Source: a virus
Virus record (IMG/VR): IMGVR_UViG_3300048444_000173
Coordinates: 1 to 64,000 of that record
Direction: 5' to 3' (one strand)
DNA: 64,000 bases
The position numbers and the translations under genes were made by a program. Positions 1 through 60,384 of this stretch are shown here, piece after piece (position 1 is the stretch's first letter; each line of letters starts with the position of its first letter). The notes under the pieces are model-generated. The model had not been told where the DNA came from. It saw only the letters and a list, made by a program, of their open reading frames with translations, and did no database searches.

Positions 1-2
1 CT

Positions 3-2729
3 ATCGACGGACGTGTTAATACAGTCGTTGATGACTTGCAGACGTTTGAAGATGATACGGCTGACCAGTTCACAAGCGCACAGGAATCGATCGACGCAGC
101 GAACGGGCGCATCACAAACAGCGTCTTTCAAATTGTCGGCAATAGCACCGACTTTGAAGATGCACAGTTACAGTCGCTTGATGAGCTAGTTGATTCGCTA
201 CAGCGTCGCACAGGACAGATAGACCGCAACTTATCTTATGCCGAAGCCATCAGTCAGCTTGAAGTTGACGTAAGTGAGGATGGTGCTTTAGCACGTTCTA
301 TTGATGCGCTAGAAGCGGCAACGGTGACGCAGGATAGCGCCATAAAAGCTAATACACAGTTTATCCAAGAAGTTGAAACGAATGTTAATGGTAATGCGAG
401 TTCGCTTGCACAGATTGCCGCAGGTGTAACAGGTGAAGAAGATACCGCATCTGCACTGATTAAACTTGAGTCATACTTGGAGGATGGTGGTTTATCCGCA
501 AGAGCTTTCTTTGGTACGGACGTTAACGGACAAGTTACAGGTATTGTTGTTAACGACAGCGGCACTGCACAACAGATTGAGTTTCAAGCTAATACGTTTG
601 CATTCCTTGATGGCGCTGGTGATGTTCAAGTCTATTGGGACACGAACAACGAGCGCTATGTATTCAACGGTGAAATCATAGCACAAGCGGGCAGCTTCAC
701 AGGTTCAGTGACATCAAGTGAGGGTAGCATTGGCGGCTGGAATATCGAACCTAACTACATGTCATCATCCGAGTCAGGGCAACGTATCGAACTTGATGCG
801 GGTAACAGTCGTATCGGTGTTTACGATACTGTCAACGAAAAAGTCGTCATGGGCTACCTCGATGGCTTGCCTAAGAACGATGGCACAGGCAACTGGGGTG
901 CAGGTGACTATGGCTTTTGGGCAAGAGCGGGTGACGGCTTAACGATTGACGGTACGATTGATTACACGTCAGGCGACTTTATTGTTGAGAATGACGCAAG
1001 TGTATCTATCCGTGACGACCAAAACCGTGAAATTGTGCGCTTAGGTACAGATAACGGTACAAAAGGTACGTTTATATATGACATAAGCGGCGATGTATTA
1101 GCCGAGTTTAGCGCTGATAAAATTGAAGTCGGTGAAAGCACTGGTGATAGCCTGACCTATCAGAACGGAAACCTAGATGTAAGCGGCGGCATAAGTGCAG
1201 ACCGTGGTGCTATCGGCGGTTGGTCTATTAGCGGAACATCATTAACAAGTGGCGACACTTCACTTAACTCAAGCACAGAAACGCTAACGCTTGGATCGGA
1301 AGTTTCGCTAAATAAAGATGCTGTAAACTTCGGCGCAGGATTCGCATGGGATAGCACCAACGGCCTTGTTGTTGATGGCGACGCAGAAATAGCAGGGTGG
1401 ATAGTCGAAACGGGCTTATTCAAATCTGCTACTAGCGGTGCGCGTATCGAGCTTAATGCAACGAACAACCGAGTTTCAGTGTTCGACTCAGTAAATGAAA
1501 AAGTCGCTATGGGTTACTTGGGCGGATTACCTAAGTATGATGGTAGTGGTAATTGGGCGAGTAACAACTACGGTTTTTGGGCTAGACAAGGCGACCAGTT
1601 AGTTATTGACGGTGACATGGAATACAATAATGGTGACTTCATCATTGAGAATGATGCGTCCGTTAAAATCCGTGACGGTGTTAACGCTAATGAAATCATG
1701 CGCTGGGGTACAGACGCTGGTGTAAAAGGTATGTTCATCTATGACGCTTCTGTTGCTGATGGTAGCGCATCAAATCGTATTGCTGAATTTAGTGCAAGTC
1801 GAATTGAAGTCGGACGCAACGATGAAAAGCTAGTTTACGAGAACGGCGAGCTTGACATTGAAGGCGGTATTACAGCAGACCGTGGCAAGATTGGCGGATG
1901 GACAATAGGCAGCACCAACCTGTCTAATACAGTGGACGGATTAGGCGCGATAGAACTAAACGCGGCTGTTCCTCGCATTCGCATTGATGACGAAAACGGT
2001 AACGCAAGATTCGTAGCAAGACCAGACAAGCTAACTGTAGGCGATAAATCAAATGACTACATGGAGTGGACACCAAACGATGGCTTAGACATCAGCGGTA
2101 ACATTTCAGGCGGAAGTATTGACCTCGGTAACGGCACGTTTACTGTTGATAATAGCGGTAACATGGTGGCGAATAGGGGTACGTTTAGAGGGAGCCTTGA
2201 CGGTGTTGATGGCACATTTAGTGGTGACATATCGGGGTCAAATGGCACTTTTGATGGTACAGTGAAGGCGAAAAACATACTGGGTGAAAGCGCAGCAGGT
2301 GGTTTTTCTTATGTAAGCCCATTTGCTCAGACTAGAATAGGTAGTAGCTACCAACAAGTGTTGAATCTTAGTGTATTATCTACGGATACTACATACATTG
2401 AGTCCCACACTAGAGTTATAACTGTTGGTGGGTTGCACGTTCTTCCTGTACAGACTTCCGGTGCCAGTGGTGCTATTATATCCGCAAGATGGTCAAGCGG
2501 GCAAGATTCCACCATAAGACAGTACAACGTGCTTCCTTCTGACTCTGGCTATACTTTCTTTATACCACCAGAAAACTTTTCAAATAATAGTACAATTACA
2601 TACCCACTCGAATTAGAGTTAAAAATTGATGGAGGCGGAGCGGGGTGGGAAATGACCGTAGAGGATGCTTATACAGTAGTGACTGTATTTAAGAACTCAG
2701 GGCTGATTGATTCAGGTTTTGTCAGCTAA
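3..2729 (+). CDS. Tail tip (lambda J-like) protein, C-terminal part
   Basis: The reading frame is open to the left edge, so the gene begins outside the window; about 908 codons are visible. The start is alpha-helical and rich in Asp, Gln and Ala. The rest is beta-rich, with IGGW and GSFTG-like strands typical of the C-terminal region of phage central tail/J proteins, which touch the host receptor at the tail tip. Two copies of a module of about 170 residues follow each other (roughly nt 718-1230 and 1378-1905). The last 180 residues form a different, presumably receptor-facing, domain. Fibre genes follow directly. The J-like role is inferred from repeats and context; no enzymatic motif is seen. 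Confidence 0.7.
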   Translation: MDGRVNTVVDDLQTFEDDTADQFTSAQESIDAANGRITNSVFQIVGNSTDFEDAQLQSLDELVDSLQRRTGQIDRNLSYAEAISQLEVDVSEDGALARSIDALEAATVTQDSAIKANTQFIQEVETNVNGNASSLAQIAAGVTGEEDTASALIKLESYLEDGGLSARAFFGTDVNGQVTGIVVNDSGTAQQIEFQANTFAFLDGAGDVQVYWDTNNERYVFNGEIIAQAGSFTGSVTSSEGSIGGWNIEPNYMSSSESGQRIELDAGNSRIGVYDTVNEKVVMGYLDGLPKNDGTGNWGAGDYGFWARAGDGLTIDGTIDYTSGDFIVENDASVSIRDDQNREIVRLGTDNGTKGTFIYDISGDVLAEFSADKIEVGESTGDSLTYQNGNLDVSGGISADRGAIGGWSISGTSLTSGDTSLNSSTETLTLGSEVSLNKDAVNFGAGFAWDSTNGLVVDGDAEIAGWIVETGLFKSATSGARIELNATNNRVSVFDSVNEKVAMGYLGGLPKYDGSGNWASNNYGFWARQGDQLVIDGDMEYNNGDFIIENDASVKIRDGVNANEIMRWGTDAGVKGMFIYDASVADGSASNRIAEFSASRIEVGRNDEKLVYENGELDIEGGITADRGKIGGWTIGSTNLSNTVDGLGAIELNAAVPRIRIDDENGNARFVARPDKLTVGDKSNDYMEWTPNDGLDISGNISGGSIDLGNGTFTVDNSGNMVANRGTFRGSLDGVDGTFSGDISGSNGTFDGTVKAKNILGESAAGGFSYVSPFAQTRIGSSYQQVLNLSVLSTDTTYIESHTRVITVGGLHVLPVQTSGASGAIISARWSSGQDSTIRQYNVLPSDSGYTFFIPPENFSNNSTITYPLELELKIDGGGAGWEMTVEDAYTVVTVFKNSGLIDSGFVS
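718..1905 (+). repeat. Internal duplication of a 170-residue module in the tail tip gene
   Basis: Both copies share the order I(G/A)GW, then RIELxAxNxR, then NEKVxMGYLxGLPKxDGxGNW, YGFWAR, GDFIxENDASVxIRD, AEFSAxxIEVG, and end at the next GGW. The copies differ mainly in short linkers. Protein similarity is far clearer than DNA similarity, so the duplication is old. Confidence 0.75.
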
Positions 2730-34401: not shown

Positions 34402-34430
34402 TTGACAATGATTCGGACGAGTGATATTGT
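34402..34430 (+). promoter_or_regulatory. sigma70 promoter of the helicase operon
   Basis: Perfect TTGACA (34402-34407), 17 bp, TATTGT (34425-34430), 32 bp before the helicase start. Confidence 0.75.
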
Positions 34431-34461: not shown

Positions 34462-35703
34462 ATGGACAAACAACAACAAGCCCTAGACGCTATTCATAAT
34501 GGAGAGAACATATTTCTCACTGGTGTAGGTGGTACAGGTAAGAGTTATGTCATTAATCAAATTAAAGATGATTCTACCATTATCTGTGCGCCAACAGGAA
34601 TTGCAGCACTAAATGTGGGCGGCATCACTTGTCATAAAGCCTTTGGATTGCCAACAGAGGTAGCGACTAAACATCATCGATCTATACATGGTAACAAGAA
34701 CGAACAGTTTAGAGAATTATTCTCTGGTAATATTGTTAAACGTATTGTTATTGATGAAATATCTATGTTGCGCCTAGATTATTTCGAACTAATTGACCAT
34801 AAACTACGTGCAGTGAGAAATAATGACCTACCCTTTGGTGGAATACAGATGGTAGTGGTAGGAGATTTCTTCCAATTAGAGCCTATAGTGAGCGTTAAGC
34901 ACAAGAAATTCTATTATATGCTATATCCTAGCGCCTTTTGCTTTAATAGCTCTAGCTGGAGCTTTAAGACCATAGAACTGGACAAGGTATATCGCCAAGA
35001 GGACGCTAATCAAGTTGCTATGTTGTCTTGTGTACGTAAAGCAGATAAACACGCTAAGTTAGCCTTAGACACAATTCAGAAACGTGCTGACATTTATAGA
35101 AACTCACCACTTACCTTAGAGTTATTTTGTTATAATGCTGGAGCAGATAAGGTTAATAAGCAGTGGTATGATGAGCTAAGCACAAGGGAATACACATATT
35201 TTGGTAGTAAACGTGGTAAGTGGAGTCCTAGTGAATTACCTGTACCAGAAGAATTACGTATGAAGTCTGGCGCAAGAATTATGCTATGTGCTAATGACTT
35301 AGAAGGGCAATATGTGAATGGTGATAGAGGCTTTATCAAGCAACTTAGCTATACAGGTATTGTCGTAGAGTTAGATGACGGCAGAATGGTCAATGTCCAA
35401 CCTTACACTTGGAAGAAGATTGATTATGAAAAGGTGGAGGGGGAGTTAGTACGTAATACTGACAATGAATATACACAGTTTCCTATCAAACTAGCATGGG
35501 CAATATCCATTCATAAATCACAAGGTATGACATTAGATAAGGTTGCTCTTAATGTTGGCAGAGGTTGTTTTGCACATGGTCAATTATACGTAGCCCTTAG
35601 TCGAGTTAAGGACTTGAATAAACTACAATTAGCAGAGCCATTAGTTTATAATCGTGATTTAATTGTCAAACAAGAGGTAAAGGAGTTTTATGAAAAAGAT
35701 TAA
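34462..35703 (+). CDS. Pif1/RecD/Dda-like SF1B helicase
   Basis: 413 residues from ATG 34462 (GGAGACTATAAT upstream). Superfamily 1B motifs appear in order: Walker [23 protein letters not shown] (Ia), IVIDEISML (II), [11 protein letters not shown] (III), ELDKVYRQ (IV), and a C-terminal [17 protein letters not shown] (V) and LYVALSRVK (VI). Such 5'-3' helicases (T4 Dda, RecD2, Pif1) act in replication initiation and fork rescue. It heads a three-gene operon that ends at the repeat tract at 36.6 kb. Confidence 0.9.
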
Positions 35704-35872
35704 CTTAACACCAGAAGAAATAGATAACTTAGTATACAAAGCCACTGTAGCTAAATGTATCTTAGTTGAAGATGGTTATTCAGAGGAAGAAGCAAAGGAT
35801 TTAGCTTATGCTTTAGTCGATTATTGGATGGGGAAATATGATGATGAAAAAGGTTCAGGAAAATCCGAATAG
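35690..35872 (+). CDS. Small helical protein in the helicase operon
   Basis: 60 residues, starting inside the helicase gene's end with AAAGGAG upstream. Begins [20 protein letters not shown], acidic. Overlaps the next gene by 35 nt. Not recognised. Confidence 0.6.
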
Positions 35873-36635
35873 GTATTCTTATCGAAGTGATGATGATGGG
35901 AGTAAGACCGTAGTTATAACCGATTTAGGTAAGAACAAATTGGAGGACATTAGACAAGAGATGGAATCACTAGAAATGGAATATAATATGTTAAAACGGG
36001 ATGACGATGCCGATGTACAACTACGCCTGACAAAGATCAATGGTAAGATTAATTCATTACGACAGTTTGCAGCAAGAATTAGACGTGGTGATAAAGTTAA
36101 GAATACTTGGGATAATCAGTTTGCTACAAATTGCCATAGTTATGTCCTTGATAACGCTGGGGCAAGTGTTAGGGAAGCATTAGATACAACTGCTATGCAG
36201 ATGGGTAAGACAGAAGATTTTGTCAAAGATATGGAAAGACGTAAATACCCTAAATATGAACTGAATCATTTATTCCATGTTCTTAGTCATCACCCAATTT
36301 GGAACGACATGATAAACTATGACGAAATAGATAAGTCTGATATAAATACTGCTACAGATTTATCGAACCAGTTAAATAAGGTAAGAAGAGCTAGGAAGAG
36401 ATATCAGTGGCGTAAAGATACTGAAAGTAAATTGAAAGAACATGAGGTTAAGATAAAACAGTTAGAATTTGAAAGTAATCTTGCTAAGATAATGGAAGAG
36501 AAATACGGACAAAATGTTAAGCCAGATGATTTTGACATAGTATTAGCATGGAGAAACACTGGAATGAGTATTCGTCAGATATCTAAGCAAACAGGTATTA
36601 GTAAGAGTCGTGTTCAAAGGCTATTACAGGAATAA
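35838..36635 (+). CDS. Helix-turn-helix protein next to the repeat tract
   Basis: 265 residues. The middle is a long charged coiled coil (EDIRQEMESLEMEYNMLKRD; KLKEHEVKIKQLEFESNLA). The last 30 residues form a resolvase-type helix-turn-helix (WRNTGMSIRQISKQTGISKS, then RVQRLL). It is the last gene before 1.7 kb of repeats and shares an operon with a Pif1-like helicase, so it is a candidate for the protein that binds those repeats. No initiator family is recognised. Confidence 0.7.
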   Translation: MMMKKVQENPNRYSYRSDDDGSKTVVITDLGKNKLEDIRQEMESLEMEYNMLKRDDDADVQLRLTKINGKINSLRQFAARIRRGDKVKNTWDNQFATNCHSYVLDNAGASVREALDTTAMQMGKTEDFVKDMERRKYPKYELNHLFHVLSHHPIWNDMINYDEIDKSDINTATDLSNQLNKVRRARKRYQWRKDTESKLKEHEVKIKQLEFESNLAKIMEEKYGQNVKPDDFDIVLAWRNTGMSIRQISKQTGISKSRVQRLLQE

Positions 36636-36657
36636 TATAACAATGTCCCAACTATTA

Positions 36658-36915
36658 ACGAAAGAATGCGGGCTAGAGAGGAGTCAAGGTTATTTTGACG
36701 TAATATATGGGACAGTTTTGGGACAACGTGCTTAAGAGACAATATAAGGCATAGTATGTGTCCCAAACTGATTATGTCACTATATCGGGTCGTATCGCTT
36801 TTACCCTAGTTTTGGACGGAAGAATGCGGCCTGTAGCTTGATTATGACTATTTTACCGATACGATTTTGTCCAAGTGTGCTATAGAAACATTATAAGGGT
36901 ATAATACCGTATCGG
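36658..36915. repeat. Inverted and direct repeats at the left end of the tract
   Basis: ACG(A/G)AAGAATGCGG(G/C)CT occurs at 36658 and 36816. CAGTTTTGGGACA (36713-36725) is inverted as TGTCCCAAACTG (36759-36770). CCGATACG (36856-36863) is inverted as CGTATCGG (36908-36915), and CGTATCG also occurs at 36791. These look like protein-binding sites. Confidence 0.6.
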
Positions 36916-37136
36916 ATAATTAAGTCATAGCTATTCTGGCGCAATATTAAGGCATAATTCTTAGGTATAGTTAGTTATGGCATAGGTAGTTATGCCTAAA
37001 TATACTGTATAAGTGTACAGTTATGAAGTGCTTCTATAAATTCGGGTCATAATGTACTGTGCAATCTGTTTTAGCGATACACTAAGACATAGTGATTTTG
37101 ACTAACACTTGGTCAAATTGACTAATGCTGTATTTG

Positions 37137-37355
37137 GGCATAGGATTGTGGTGCTGTATAGGGCATAGAGTTATGGCTAGGTATAAGGCATAGGATTGTG
37201 ACAATGTAATTTAGCATAGAATTGTGACTAGGTATTTTGGCAATGCTTATGGCGATGTATTTTGGCATAGTATTATGGCAATGTTTATGTCGATATTTAT
37301 GGTGATGCTATTTGGCATAAGATTATGACAATGTTTACGGCATTGTATCTGCAAA
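37137..37355 (+). repeat. Degenerate 25-bp tandem repeat, about nine units
   Basis: The unit is roughly GGCATAGnATTRTGRC followed by nATGTATTT. Copies begin at 37137, 37162, 37187, 37213, 37239, 37264, 37289 (degenerate), 37314 and 37339, a 25-26 bp period close to 2.4 helical turns. A stray copy (GCATAGAGTTAGGGCTAGG) lies near 40406. Confidence 0.75.
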
Positions 37356-37449
37356 TGTACTTGAAAGGGTAGCCAGATCCAACTAACACAGTAAAATATA
37401 CTTTACCGAACCTATTATCTCACCATAATTCTATGCTATAACCTTTTGC

Positions 37450-37778
37450 GTAATCATAAGTACACATATTATGCCTAAGTTTCTGGCGTGATCTTTTGCT
37501 AAGGAATCTTACCCTTTCGGGTATACATAAGTACAGATATTTTGCCAAAGTGTTTTTGCGTAATCATAAGTACAGATATTTTGCCAAAGTTTCGGGTATA
37601 CATAAGTAGGCAAATCATTCAGACGTAATCATAAATACAGGAATTTCGCCAGAGTGTTCAGGTTTACATAAGTACAAGAATTATGACAGGATATACATAA
37701 GTACAGATATTTTGCTCAGGTTTACATAAGTACAGATATTGTCAGGATATACATAAGTAGGCATATTTGTCCGAACCG
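37450..37778 (+). repeat. Iteron-like array, nine copies of CATAAGTACAGATATT
   Basis: CATAAGTA-type cores start at 37455, 37526, 37565, 37601, 37630 (CATAAATAC), 37667, 37696, 37725 and 37752. Most are preceded by TA and followed by CAGATATTTTGCC. Spacing tightens from 71 to 39, 36, 29, 37, 29, 29 and 27 bp. All are in the same direction, as in iterons bound by a replication initiator. Confidence 0.8.
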
Positions 37779-37868
37779 TTTTCCGAACCATGCTGTGCCT
37801 AACACGTTCAACCTGTCGCTGTCAATACCCTTTGTATAGAATATTCTGCTATAACCTTATGCCAAAAA

Positions 37869-38167
37869 ATTATATACCTGAAGTATTGACAAGATTATTT
37901 TAACACTATCTAGCAATATAACCTTGCTGAATATATGCCATAATCTTTATTAATACTGCTGCACTGGAGTAATTTATAACGGTTATAAGCAATCTTGTTT
38001 TAATAACAATATTGAATATATGCCTAAAACGCTCTATACGGCATTCTAAGCAATTTTAGCCTTAAGTAATACGTTGGGCTAGGGTATAGGCGGATCTCCA
38101 TTTTCTATACAGAATGTTATATATAGCTAAATATTATATGCCTGAAGTATTGACAAGATCATTTTAA
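37869..38167 (+). repeat. 35-bp direct repeat containing TTGACA, two copies
   Basis: Copies at 37869-37903 and 38133-38167 differ at two positions. Each reads ATTATAT, CCTGAAGTATTGACAAGAT and ATTTTAA in turn, so each carries a perfect -35 hexamer, but no good -10 is found 17 bp on in either. Confidence 0.8.
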
Positions 38168-38266
38168 TATGCTATTCGCGTGTGCGTGTATATAAGAGTG
38201 TATCTAGCCGATATTGCCATATAACAGAATAGAATAGTAATAACGTTTAATATAATAAATTAATCC

Positions 38267-38294
38267 TTGCTAGTTTTCATTGATTCGCTATAAT
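38267..38294 (+). promoter_or_regulatory. Promoter reading out of the repeat tract
   Basis: TTGCTA (38267-38272), 16 bp, perfect TATAAT (38289-38294), 46 bp before the first small gene. Confidence 0.6.
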
Positions 38295-38339
38295 TGTTTA
38301 CAAGTTAAGGCGAACAACGCAACGAAAGGGTAAAATATT

Positions 38340-38450
38340 ATGAGCAAACGTAAACAGCAACGCATTCGCAACGAACGTATTAAAGCTACTTTATTGATTT
38401 TATCAGCGCTATTACTAGGTGCACTTGGTTATATTATGGTAGTGGTATAA
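38340..38450 (+). CDS. 36-residue membrane protein
   Basis: Basic N-terminus (MSKRKQQRIRNERIKAT) then one transmembrane helix (LLILSALLLGALGYIMVVV). AAAGGGTAAAATATT precedes the ATG. First gene after the promoter; typical of tiny early membrane proteins. Function unknown. Confidence 0.6.
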   Translation: MSKRKQQRIRNERIKATLLILSALLLGALGYIMVVV

Positions 38451-38460
38451 GGAATTTATT

Positions 38461-38691
38461 ATGATTTACATTGTAAGAGATTCGAACGACAACTTCAGCG
38501 TTACACGTACGCCACCAATGGCGCATAATGTAGGCGTAGTATCTGACTTAGCATACGAGCGCAACGGTTCAAGTGATAATCGCACTATGTACGGTGTTTT
38601 AACGCTACATTGCGAACAACGGTTATTGCAAAATGAATTGGCGGATATTGCACTAAAAACTAAATTATTAAACTTCATTAACGGGATTTAA
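38461..38691 (+). CDS. Small protein, 76 residues
   Basis: AAGGAATTTATT precedes the ATG. Beta start (MIYIVRDSNDNFSVTRTPP) and helical end (LLQNELADIALKTKLLNF). Not recognised. Confidence 0.6.
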   Translation: MIYIVRDSNDNFSVTRTPPMAHNVGVVSDLAYERNGSSDNRTMYGVLTLHCEQRLLQNELADIALKTKLLNFINGI

Positions 38692-38693
38692 TC

Positions 38694-38810
38694 ATGTTCT
38701 TATTCATGCTTATTTCTTCTTTTATATTCTTTGGCGTATTGCTTCATATTGGAATATCGCTAAATACTATGACCAAAGAAACTTACCAACTATTAGAAAA
38801 GAGTATTTAA
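38694..38810 (+). CDS. 38-residue membrane protein
   Basis: One long transmembrane helix from the start (MFLFMLISSFIFFGVLLHIG) and a short hydrophilic tail. Starts two bases after the preceding stop with CGGGATTTAATC upstream. Function unknown. Confidence 0.55.
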   Translation: MFLFMLISSFIFFGVLLHIGISLNTMTKETYQLLEKSI

Positions 38811-38812
38811 TT

Positions 38813-39001
38813 ATGTTTTACAACGTACACATTGAAAACAACATCGCAAAAAATACAACCGCTTCAGGCGCTGAACGTATGTTAAAAGAGTTTGGCTTGA
38901 CTTCTCAGCAAATAGAACGAGCTTTACAAGTTGGCGTTGTTCCCCGTTCTTTTTGTAATTCTAAAATCAAGCTAGTTTGGATCAAAAAGGTGGGGGAATA
39001 A
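38813..39001 (+). CDS. Small protein, 62 residues
   Basis: Begins MFYNVHIENNIAKNTTASGA, with a helix (ERMLKEFGLTSQQIERALQV) and a basic end. Starts two bases after the previous stop. Not recognised. Confidence 0.6.
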   Translation: MFYNVHIENNIAKNTTASGAERMLKEFGLTSQQIERALQVGVVPRSFCNSKIKLVWIKKVGE

Positions 39002-39003
39002 CC

Positions 39004-39243
39004 ATGAATAATACTTGCGTTATTTATTGCAACGGTTTTAACCAATGGATCGTTCAAGCGGGTTTTGAAATAATCGGTCGTTATGACTCATTAAAAGGCG
39101 CTAGAATTGCAGCAACAAAAAAGGGCTTTAATCATGCAAAAATTAAAACGTGCTTTACTGGAATTTTTAGCTGCATCAAGCGTCACAGCTATTGGTTTAT
39201 TATCTTGCTATATTGCATGGACAACAACGCTTTAACGGCTTGA
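39004..39243 (+). CDS. Small protein, 79 residues
   Basis: GGGGGAATAACC precedes ATG 39004. The first 45 residues look like a small folded unit (CVIYCNGFNQWIVQAGFEII). The Cys-rich end (CFTGIFSCIKRHSYW) lies where a second frame encodes a membrane peptide, so part of it may reflect overlap. Not recognised. Confidence 0.5.
   Translation: MNNTCVIYCNGFNQWIVQAGFEIIGRYDSLKGARIAATKKGFNHAKIKTCFTGIFSCIKRHSYWFIILLYCMDNNALTA
39134..39235 (+). CDS. Possible nested 33-residue membrane peptide
   Basis: ATG 39134, with AAAAGGGCTTTAATC upstream, opens a frame inside the 39004 gene. It encodes a basic start (MQKLKRALLEFLAA) and a hydrophobic helix (VTAIGLLSCYIAW). Tiny one-helix proteins are frequent here, so this may be the real gene at this spot. 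Confidence 0.4.
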   Translation: MQKLKRALLEFLAASSVTAIGLLSCYIAWTTTL

Positions 39244-39292
39244 CAGGCTTTATAGCGTACAATTTAACACTAAATAATAAGGGTATATTATT

Positions 39293-39769
39293 ATGAAAAC
39301 TTTACAAACTCTGATCAACACTATTAACGACAACCTTGTTTTAAAAACTCGCCCCGATGATACGCAATTTTATTGTGTTGCTGATAATGCGCCTGAATAT
39401 GTGCAAGATCTAGCGCATCACGTCCATGACGATATGATGCCGGATGACTACCGGTATAAATTTTTAACGGAAACAATCCGAGAGATAGCAGATTATGACG
39501 AACAAACGCTAACTGACATGCTGACAGGTGATTATGATATTTATGACATTATCGGTGAACCTGATGTTTACAATCATAGTCTTTTACAGTGGCAAGCGTC
39601 CAACCTTTCACGCATGGAATATGCGGATGATTGTTTAGCAGAGTACGAACCTCAGTCATTATCACAGTTGTTAATGTCTGCACAACATAAGGAAATGGTA
39701 GAAGTGTTTAACCTAATTTTATCATGGTTGGAACAACAACAATATGAGATGTGGGAAGAAGTAGCATAA
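39293..39769 (+). CDS. Acidic protein, 158 residues
   Basis: Helical and acidic (DDTQFYCVADNAPEYVQDLA; EIADYDEQTLTDMLTGDYDI). Preceded by AAGGGTATATTATT. No family recognised. Confidence 0.6.
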   Translation: MKTLQTLINTINDNLVLKTRPDDTQFYCVADNAPEYVQDLAHHVHDDMMPDDYRYKFLTETIREIADYDEQTLTDMLTGDYDIYDIIGEPDVYNHSLLQWQASNLSRMEYADDCLAEYEPQSLSQLLMSAQHKEMVEVFNLILSWLEQQQYEMWEEVA

Positions 39770-39850
39770 GCACGACAACAACCAATAGCTATAATTTTAT
39801 GCCGTAGTTATGGCGCTATATTTAATGCAATTAATTAAAGGGTAAAGATT

Positions 39851-39943
39851 ATGCACAAATTAAACGACAAGAAGTTACGCAAGAATCATAAGCAATGGCG
39901 GCAAGGTCGAAAGAATCCAACTAAAAAGCAATGGGGTGTGTAA
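39851..39943 (+). CDS. 30-residue basic peptide
   Basis: AAAGGGTAAAGATT precedes ATG 39851. Very basic (MHKLNDKKLRKNHKQWRQGR); may bind nucleic acid. Two bases separate it from the next gene, supporting a real translational unit. Confidence 0.5.
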   Translation: MHKLNDKKLRKNHKQWRQGRKNPTKKQWGV

Positions 39944-39945
39944 TT

Positions 39946-40227
39946 ATGAAGCATTATTCAATAGACTACTTAAACGAGCACGGAACCAATGGCGGCGTTG
40001 TCGAGCTAGAATCCGGCGATTACTATCACGTTGTTTATATTGGAGCCGATCATGTTTGGGTGTTTGGTGCAGTGTGCAACGTGGGGTTATTAATGCAAGG
40101 GTATTATGACTGTGAAGAATACGAGAGCATCGATCAAGGCTTACAGGAGTTACTAACAGACCTCGAAATGCTAGAACGTGGCGAAGGTACTAGCGCTAAC
40201 TTTTATGCATACAATGAGGCGGTGTAA
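39946..40227 (+). CDS. Unknown 93-residue protein
   Basis: ATG 39946. Beta-rich first half (GGVVELESGDYYHVVYIGAD) and an acidic helical end (DQGLQELLTDLEMLERGEG). Not recognised. Confidence 0.6.
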   Translation: MKHYSIDYLNEHGTNGGVVELESGDYYHVVYIGADHVWVFGAVCNVGLLMQGYYDCEEYESIDQGLQELLTDLEMLERGEGTSANFYAYNEAV

Positions 40228-40230
40228 CTT

Positions 40231-40386
40231 ATGCTTAAATTTATAGCAGGATTAATAGTGATGTTATCATTAGCGCTAGATCATGAGGCTCAGATAATAG
40301 CAATACTTACTAGCGCTGTTATCATGGCGATTGATTTATCCGAGTTTGTTGGCGTAGGAGTGAAGGCGAATAATCGGCAACGGTAA
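40231..40386 (+). CDS. 51-residue membrane protein
   Basis: Two hydrophobic stretches (MLKFIAGLIVMLSLAL and IIAILTSAVIMAIDL) around a short polar turn, with a basic end (KANNRQR). Last gene before the terminator at 40.4 kb. Function unknown. Confidence 0.5.
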   Translation: MLKFIAGLIVMLSLALDHEAQIIAILTSAVIMAIDLSEFVGVGVKANNRQR

Positions 40387-54483: not shown

Positions 54484-54559
54484 TGGCGTTCCTACTAGGA
54501 CTTGAACCTAGACCACAAACTTAGAAGGATTGTATGCTTTCCAATTACACTATAGGAAC
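54484..54559 (-). tRNA. tRNA-Arg (anticodon UCU)
   Basis: 76 nt including an encoded CCA end. Acceptor GTTCCTA/TAGGAAC pairs fully. D stem GTGT/GCAT has two G-U pairs. The anticodon loop CTTCTAA gives UCU; its stem has one T-T mismatch. T arm CTAGG-TTCAAGT-CCTAG is perfect. It reads AGA codons, which are rarer in many GC-balanced gammaproteobacteria, so it could aid phage translation, or replace a tRNA cleaved by the host. Confidence 0.93.
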
Positions 54560-60155: not shown

Positions 60156-60244
60156 TTTGGAATAAATATAGTTCAAAATTAGTAGTGTTATAATGTAACA
60201 AAATAGGGGTCATTTTCGAAATGCTCTAGCCCATGTGTGGCGTA

Positions 60245-60282
60245 GCCTGTAGCTCGATTTTCGCTCTTAGATCCGTTATAAT
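60245..60282 (+). promoter_or_regulatory. Shared element GCCTGTAGCTYGATT with a TATAAT box
   Basis: GCCTGTAGCTCGATT (60245-60259) ends 17 bp before a perfect TATAAT (60277-60282). The same 15-mer with one change is at 36829-36843 in the repeat tract. It stands where a -35 element would be but is not TTGACA-like, so it might mark an activator- or alternative sigma-dependent promoter. Confidence 0.4.
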
Positions 60283-60306
60283 GGGGGGATTTCTGCCATG
60301 ATTTCC

Positions 60307-60335
60307 TTGTTATAGTATTAGTAATGATCTATACT
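60307..60335 (+). promoter_or_regulatory. sigma70-like promoter of the polymerase-like gene
   Basis: TTGTTA (60307-60312), 17 bp, TATACT (60330-60335), 50 bp before ATG 60385, which has AGGAG upstream. Confidence 0.55.
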
Positions 60336-60384
60336 ACAGATATTATGTAATAGATTATGTCATAGACATTAGGAGTAAATAGTT

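Follow-up and report, generated by a model that had tools for sequence, protein, structure and literature searches.

The 64,000-nucleotide stretch of viral DNA analysed here (the window; bases 1-64000 of the 82362-base IMG/VR record IMGVR_UViG_3300048444_000173) carries a short operon for a superfamily 1B (SF1B) helicase and a helix-turn-helix (HTH) protein, which runs into a 1.70-kb non-coding tract of direct repeats that is probably a control site where copying of the genome starts. In the reading that we favor, to which we give a probability of slightly less than one half (about 0.48), the HTH protein is a sequence-specific DNA-binder that mainly targets the adjacent tract, and the tract is the replication origin of the phage. 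A preliminary description, made from the letters of the DNA, had likened the region to an initiator-helicase-origin unit, and the arrangement behind that proposal was recovered: the operon lies beside a repeat tract that is unique in the genome, and the layout is the same in Nitrincola phage 1M3-16 and looser in Alteromonas phage PT11-V22 and in Shewanella phages 1/4 and 1/40. The operon and the tract comprise the following features.

34402-34430, plus strand: promoter-like site TTGACA-17-TATTGT upstream of the helicase operon; TG precedes the second hexamer (consensus scan)
34462-35703, plus strand: SF1B helicase of the Pif1/Dda type, 413 amino acids (matches in Pfam, PHROGs and PDB)
35690-35872, plus strand: open reading frame (ORF) of 60 codons that overlaps both neighbouring genes (ORF list)
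35838-36635, plus strand: protein of 265 amino acids with a helical middle domain, a long coiled-coil helix and a C-terminal HTH; candidate tract-binding protein
36636-38339, no strand assigned: non-coding repeat tract, 1.70 kb; candidate origin or control region (repeat statistics, ORF list)

The tract is without any plausible gene. We read it as an origin because no longer non-coding stretch and no second strong direct-repeat array exist in the 82-kb genome. It holds 85 repeated 12-mers, against 0.2 +/- 0.6 in dinucleotide shuffles, and up to 93 repeated 11-mers per kb, where windows outside the tract have 6 per kb or fewer; among 1-kb windows across the whole genome, none elsewhere approaches this repeat density. 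Of the 1.6 kb of iterons and AT-rich DNA reported in the preliminary description, the repeats are thus far above chance and extend over 1.70 kb, whereas the AT-richness is modest (34% GC against about 40% in the genome, with a minimum near 38200-38300). The sequence ACATAAGTACAGATATT, with up to 3 mismatches allowed, occurs 7 times genome-wide, every copy lying in the tract and on the plus strand. The shorter motif GGCA(A/T)A is present in 18 copies in the tract (mean 2.4 and maximum 8 in 1000 shuffles) and shows no clustering elsewhere in the genome. Its plus to minus orientation is 8:1 in the left half and 2:7 in the right half (Fisher p=0.015, with a dividing point picked after inspection of the data). 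The elements of the tract and the genes that follow it are listed below.

36748-37319, plus strand: left half, GGCA(A/T)A mostly on the plus strand (8/9); includes the array in the next line
37126-37334: array of repeats of about 25-26 nt (repeat family search)
37448-37770, plus strand: repeat family (A/T)CATAAGTACAGATATTTTGCC, with 8 exact CATAAGTA cores and one variant, spaced 27-71 nt apart
37470-38142, minus strand: right half, GGCA(A/T)A mostly on the minus strand (7/9)
37858-38167, plus strand: two 46-nt repeats, 87% alike, containing CCTGAAGTATTGACAAGAT (family D4)
38021-38067, plus strand: element GCTCTATACGGCATTCTAAGC, with a likeness in the tracts of PT11-V22 and contig L074 (local alignment)
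38267-38294, plus strand: promoter-like site TTGCTA-16-TATAAT, immediately before the ATG (38340) of the first gene after the tract
38340-40386, plus strand: small genes in a short operon that follows the tract and extends to the convergent junction near 40.4 kb

The CATAAGTA family runs in a single direction only. The element at 38021-38067 is only suggestive of a sequence common to the tracts of PT11-V22 and L074, since 4 of 500 shuffles aligned equally well before correction for several comparisons. Another candidate, a GCC-GAA-TATTGAC element in common with the 1M3-16 tract, was dropped: exact copies numbered 1 and 2, and the best alignment of the tracts lay elsewhere.

The helicase, the 60-codon ORF and the HTH gene form one operon, in which the three reading frames overlap. 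The earlier statement that one operon encodes an SF1B helicase and a coiled-coil HTH protein is confirmed by profile matches, by the overlapping frames and by a structural model, with the addition of the 60-codon ORF, which had been missed and which gave no match in Pfam and no credible match in PHROGs. Profiles and solved Pif1 structures both place the helicase core in the SF1B Pif1/Dda class: it matches Pfam PIF1 (PF05970, E=2e-33), the Dda-like phrog_325 (E=1e-72 over residues 2-411) and solved Pif1 helicases, best of all PDB 8bns (E=5e-81). Its closest phage relative is that of PT11-V22, at 44.6% identity. Promoter-like sites in the region number no more than expected by chance, and the site at 34402-34430 is weak taken alone.

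For the HTH protein, matches to known families in Pfam and PHROGs were confined to residues of about 230-264 and were all to generic HTH models; no initiator domain (Rep, RepA_N, lambda O, DnaA) was recognised by the sequence profiles of these two databases, in agreement with the earlier remark that the protein belongs to no recognised initiator family. Its sequence matched no solved structure in PDB. An AlphaFold2 model built on a five-sequence alignment (mean predicted local distance difference test score, pLDDT, of 79) predicts middle helices at residues 91-170, a long helix of 49 residues at 175-223 and the C-terminal HTH at 231-264. A Foldseek search of PDB with this model returned nothing at E<=0.001, the looser matches being helical bundles or coiled coil to residues 6-89. 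The gene adjoins an array of directly repeated sites, and the protein likely binds the adjacent tract. Searches of phage records, viral contigs (by pattern scans) and bacterial genomes found no close relative of either the HTH protein or the tract. Two repeat matches in viral contigs looked unrelated and were dropped as chance hits. In a 96%-identical contig (L011), which appears to end before the region, neither the HTH protein nor the helicase had a match.

More distant relatives could nevertheless be recognised. In single-pair BLASTP comparisons the HTH protein matched PT11-V22 ORF123 (E=2e-4 over 260 residues) and 1M3-16 orf42 (E=0.007), and these two proteins matched each other (E=2e-8). 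With the HTH removed, the pairs among the three proteins were still related when set against locally shuffled sequence (0/300 shuffles), and on these sequence comparisons the three are members of one coiled-coil/HTH family. A protein of 236 amino acids in Shewanella phages 1/4 and 1/40 (phrog_26693) probably belongs to the family as well. It has a similar C-terminal HTH, the same coiled-coil architecture and a nearby Dda-type helicase and non-coding DNA; it differs in that the non-coding DNA precedes its gene and in that the Shewanella 1/4 protein, with its HTH removed, showed no similarity above local shuffles (39-203 of 300). In a Foldseek search of viral models, the matches above a gap in the list were entries of 216 amino acids (4e-6), the PT11-V22 protein (2e-5), 244 amino acids (1e-4) and 236 amino acids (3e-3), of which the first was assigned to 1M3-16 orf42 and the last to the Shewanella protein by length alone. 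The 1M3-16 and PT11-V22 matches are not independent, because both sequences were in the alignment of the model.

The neighbourhood of the HTH gene also recurs. Nitrincola phage 1M3-16, whose genome has 82438 bases and whose polymerase is 52.6% identical, has a UvrD-type helicase followed by the HTH homologue and then by a non-coding tract of 1.9 kb; small genes and a convergent junction come next. This tract contains TGTTGAA in 10 copies on one strand and 0 on the other. The arrangement is that of the window, with an SF1 helicase, an HTH protein of the family and a non-coding repeat tract, and it argues for an origin. No Dda-type helicase was found in the 1M3-16 record, so the position of the helicase is kept while its class changes. 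In PT11-V22, the HTH gene follows a Dda-type helicase at a distance of about 2.1 kb, and a non-coding tract of 1.62 kb, situated at a convergent junction, comes about 3.7 kb after the HTH gene. In Shewanella phage 1/4 the probable HTH homologue follows a Dda-type helicase at 2.2 kb, and the 0.8 kb immediately before its gene is non-coding. This nearness of HTH gene, Dda-type helicase and non-coding DNA is further support for an origin. In all four members the distance to the upstream SF1 helicase gene is at most about 2.3 kb, and a non-coding tract of 0.8-1.9 kb is present within about 4 kb. From these layouts, the position of the tract varies and the link to the helicase is constant, and the helicase-HTH-tract module is conserved in kind; the sample is small, at four members, and clustering is common among early phage genes. 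No comparable module was seen in the stretches read of the polymerase relatives SYP, AciJM_313, phiPMW, P26059A and DC31, and the “DNA-binding domain protein” of SYP was rejected as a family member, being without the family architecture.

Some further observations were made on the non-coding DNA of these phages. In 1M3-16, the annotation divides the UvrD-type helicase into three reading frames (L071:19650-21133). The tracts of PT11-V22 (L085:23367-24987) and of its relative L073 (L073:3960-5351) hold series of differing short perfect palindromes, such as AACAATTAATTGTT and TAATAACGTAGTTATTA, and the palindrome structure seems to be kept while the letters change. Repeated CATTCTCA(C/T) motifs occur in the non-coding DNA of 1M3-16 (L071:17106-17450) and of Pseudomonas phage SYP (L075:11695-12362), and that of 1M3-16 also holds GATAATGTTAATGATTATC; both motifs presumably resemble Fur-box halves.

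The main rival to the origin is that the tract serves as a transcriptional control region, with the HTH protein as a repressor or activator on an operator array for the operon at 38340, and perhaps for its own gene. It is consistent with the promoter-like TTGCTA-16-TATAAT at 38267-38294 ahead of the first downstream gene, with a -10/-35 arrangement in 1M3-16 judged by eye to be similar, with the C-terminal HTH, which matches mostly regulator families, and with a strand skew that does not favor an origin. Even so we consider this reading rather unlikely, given that a 1.7-kb array of about 18 motifs and 9 repeats, reaching up to 1.5 kb upstream, is long for the operators of one promoter, that the motif forms no clusters elsewhere in the genome that would indicate a regulon, and that the linkage to an SF1 helicase is left unexplained. 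The small downstream genes that were tested had no match in Pfam or PHROGs.

Two contigs related to PT11-V22 (L073 and L074; HTH protein 96% identical) provide another line of evidence on the target of the HTH. Both carry at the edge of the tract a gene that is absent from PT11-V22 and is flanked on both sides by tract sequence.

L073:3296-3907, minus strand, also in L074: gene at the tract edge for an EndoII/GIY-YIG-like nuclease that ends in the family HTH

The first approximately 80 residues of the product resemble EndoII/GIY-YIG nucleases, and the last approximately 60 match the HTH of the family (PT11-V22, 1.6e-6; 1M3-16, 0.005), with no match to these last residues at E<0.1 in any other of 5192 ORFs. 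In phage ICP1, the nuclease Odn joins a GIY-YIG-type nuclease to the DNA-binding domain of RepA and cuts the origins of PLE (PMC8263062). The L073/L074 nuclease likewise bears the HTH of a nearby DNA-binding protein, but its nuclease domain resembles EndoII (denA) where that of Odn is T5orf172, and its DNA-binding domain is of the coiled-coil/HTH type instead of RepA. By analogy, this parallel suggests that the family HTH targets tract DNA, and it is a further reason to favor an origin; it also suggests that Odn-type origin-directed nucleases may occur outside ICP1. No nuclease of this kind was seen in the tract of the window.

Among known systems, the closest comparison is with the satellite replicon PLE of Vibrio cholerae and phage ICP1, where a RepA_N initiator acts at an iteron origin located in non-coding DNA, with the ICP1 helicase HelA/HelB. 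The SF1B helicases of ICP1 are needed for PLE replication from the RepA/repeat origin, T4 Dda can substitute for them, and the replisome is of the T7 type (PMC7145576). The window has in common with that system a DNA-binding protein with a repeat-rich non-coding region, an accessory SF1B helicase that is 26-28% identical and falls into the same broad family, a T7-type replisome and helicases interchangeable by class. That homologous helicases serve replication from a repeat origin adds to the case for an origin here. The HTH protein, however, has no RepA_N match in Pfam, and the helicase, the HTH protein and the tract, here a candidate origin, stand together in one phage genome. T4 Dda and the Pif1 helicases of eukaryotes and bacteria are of the same SF1B family by Pfam, PHROGs and PDB; the T4 replisome is unrelated, and we know of no HTH partner or repeat tract linked to T4 Dda. 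As at the origins of iteron plasmids and of lambda O, the gene for a DNA-binding protein lies beside repeated sites and an AT-rich stretch, but in sequence the HTH protein matches none of the Rep, O or DnaA-type initiators and the repeats of the window are irregularly spaced (27-71 nt).

Several points weigh against an origin. The third-position GC skew of the coding strand is +0.113 for plus-strand genes at 20-36.6 kb, +0.173 for minus-strand genes at 40.6-50 kb and about zero elsewhere, so that on the plus strand its sign changes at the tract from positive on the left to negative on the right, whereas origins usually show the opposite change. No strand-composition switch of the sign expected of an origin was therefore found, although transcription can mask such a switch and many origins are without this feature; strong transcription near the junction could cause the third-position skew. 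Skew values for whole 1-kb windows were disregarded, since they confound genes with strands. Furthermore, DnaA-box-like sites are not enriched, the tract ends in a promoter-like site, and it is not in every case adjacent to the HTH gene. A four-sequence profile found no family member near the Dda-type helicases of Vequintavirinae, ICP1 helB, Flavobacterium and Vibrio. The genes helA and helB are dispensable for ICP1 itself (PMC9040626), and the theta origin of ICP1 lies near 60 kb (PMC7145576), about 23 kb from the helicase at about 83 kb. Given the skew, the promoter-like site and these last two points, the initiator-helicase-origin unit of the preliminary description is only partly supported. 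Finally, the nuclease evidence does not separate an origin from an operator, because HTH domains are common to homing nucleases and transcription regulators, and one regulator resembles the DNA-binding domains of homing nucleases (PMC8263062).

Another explanation is that the tract is a late rolling-circle origin with a packaging (pac) site, or a replication terminus. The cumulative GC-skew maximum lies within 3 kb of the tract, the tract of PT11-V22 sits at a convergent junction, and in ICP1 a pac site and late origin were proposed in the 1.3-kb orf-less space (PMC7145576). We regard this explanation as improbable, since the large-terminase-like gene (56.6-57.8 kb) is 18 kb from the tract and the HTH gene neighbours a helicase and not terminase genes. 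It is more doubtful still that the tract encodes a non-coding RNA, for which the precedent is the abundant long non-coding RNA of ICP1 near its lysis genes (PMC9040626), together with a 1.0-kb gap in ICP1 about 3.5 kb downstream of helB and beside holin genes: a search of Rfam returned nothing at E<=1, no strong promoter-like site was seen at the start of the tract, and DNA repeats in one direction are no signature of an RNA.

If the tract is the origin, the HTH protein would assemble on the repeats via its HTH and coiled coil and distort or open the AT-rich flank, the SF1 helicase would help to open or process the site, and the T7-type replisome of the phage (primase-helicase and PolA) would then load there. 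The genes of this replisome are located at 8.6-16.7 kb and include a primase-helicase (phrog_239, 6e-122), a PolA-type polymerase (phrog_1252, 1e-176), an endonuclease and an exonuclease. A T7-type replisome by itself says nothing on how replication starts; many phages encode one, and to our knowledge the start of replication is not known for most of them. Should the module comprise an initiator and its origin, a defined protein and site would be available in the cultured phages 1M3-16, PT11-V22 and Shewanella 1/4. The module would then also suggest a role at origins for accessory SF1B helicases, Dda and HelA/HelB among them, the in vivo function of which has been described as not worked out (PMC9040626). 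A broader proposal, which we consider less likely than not, is that these proteins, with their helical domain, coiled coil and C-terminal HTH, constitute a new family of phage origin-binding initiators that use interchangeable SF1 helicases in loading T7-type replisomes at long, repeat-rich origins, and that a nuclease at the corresponding site of a related phage has captured their HTH.

Some minor observations concern the genome as a whole. The 27 bases at window positions 1-27 are identical to those at the end of the record (82336-82362), and because both ends share these bases the genome is probably complete and circular; the record is classed as linear. A single tRNA gene, for tRNA-Arg (anticodon tct), was identified at window positions 54484-54559, adjoining a non-coding gap of several hundred bases. 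The divergent intergenic region at window positions 60214-60384 coincides with the cumulative GC skew minimum and contains 12-nt tandem repeats (ATTATGTAATAG); it may be another start site for replication or hold two divergent promoters.

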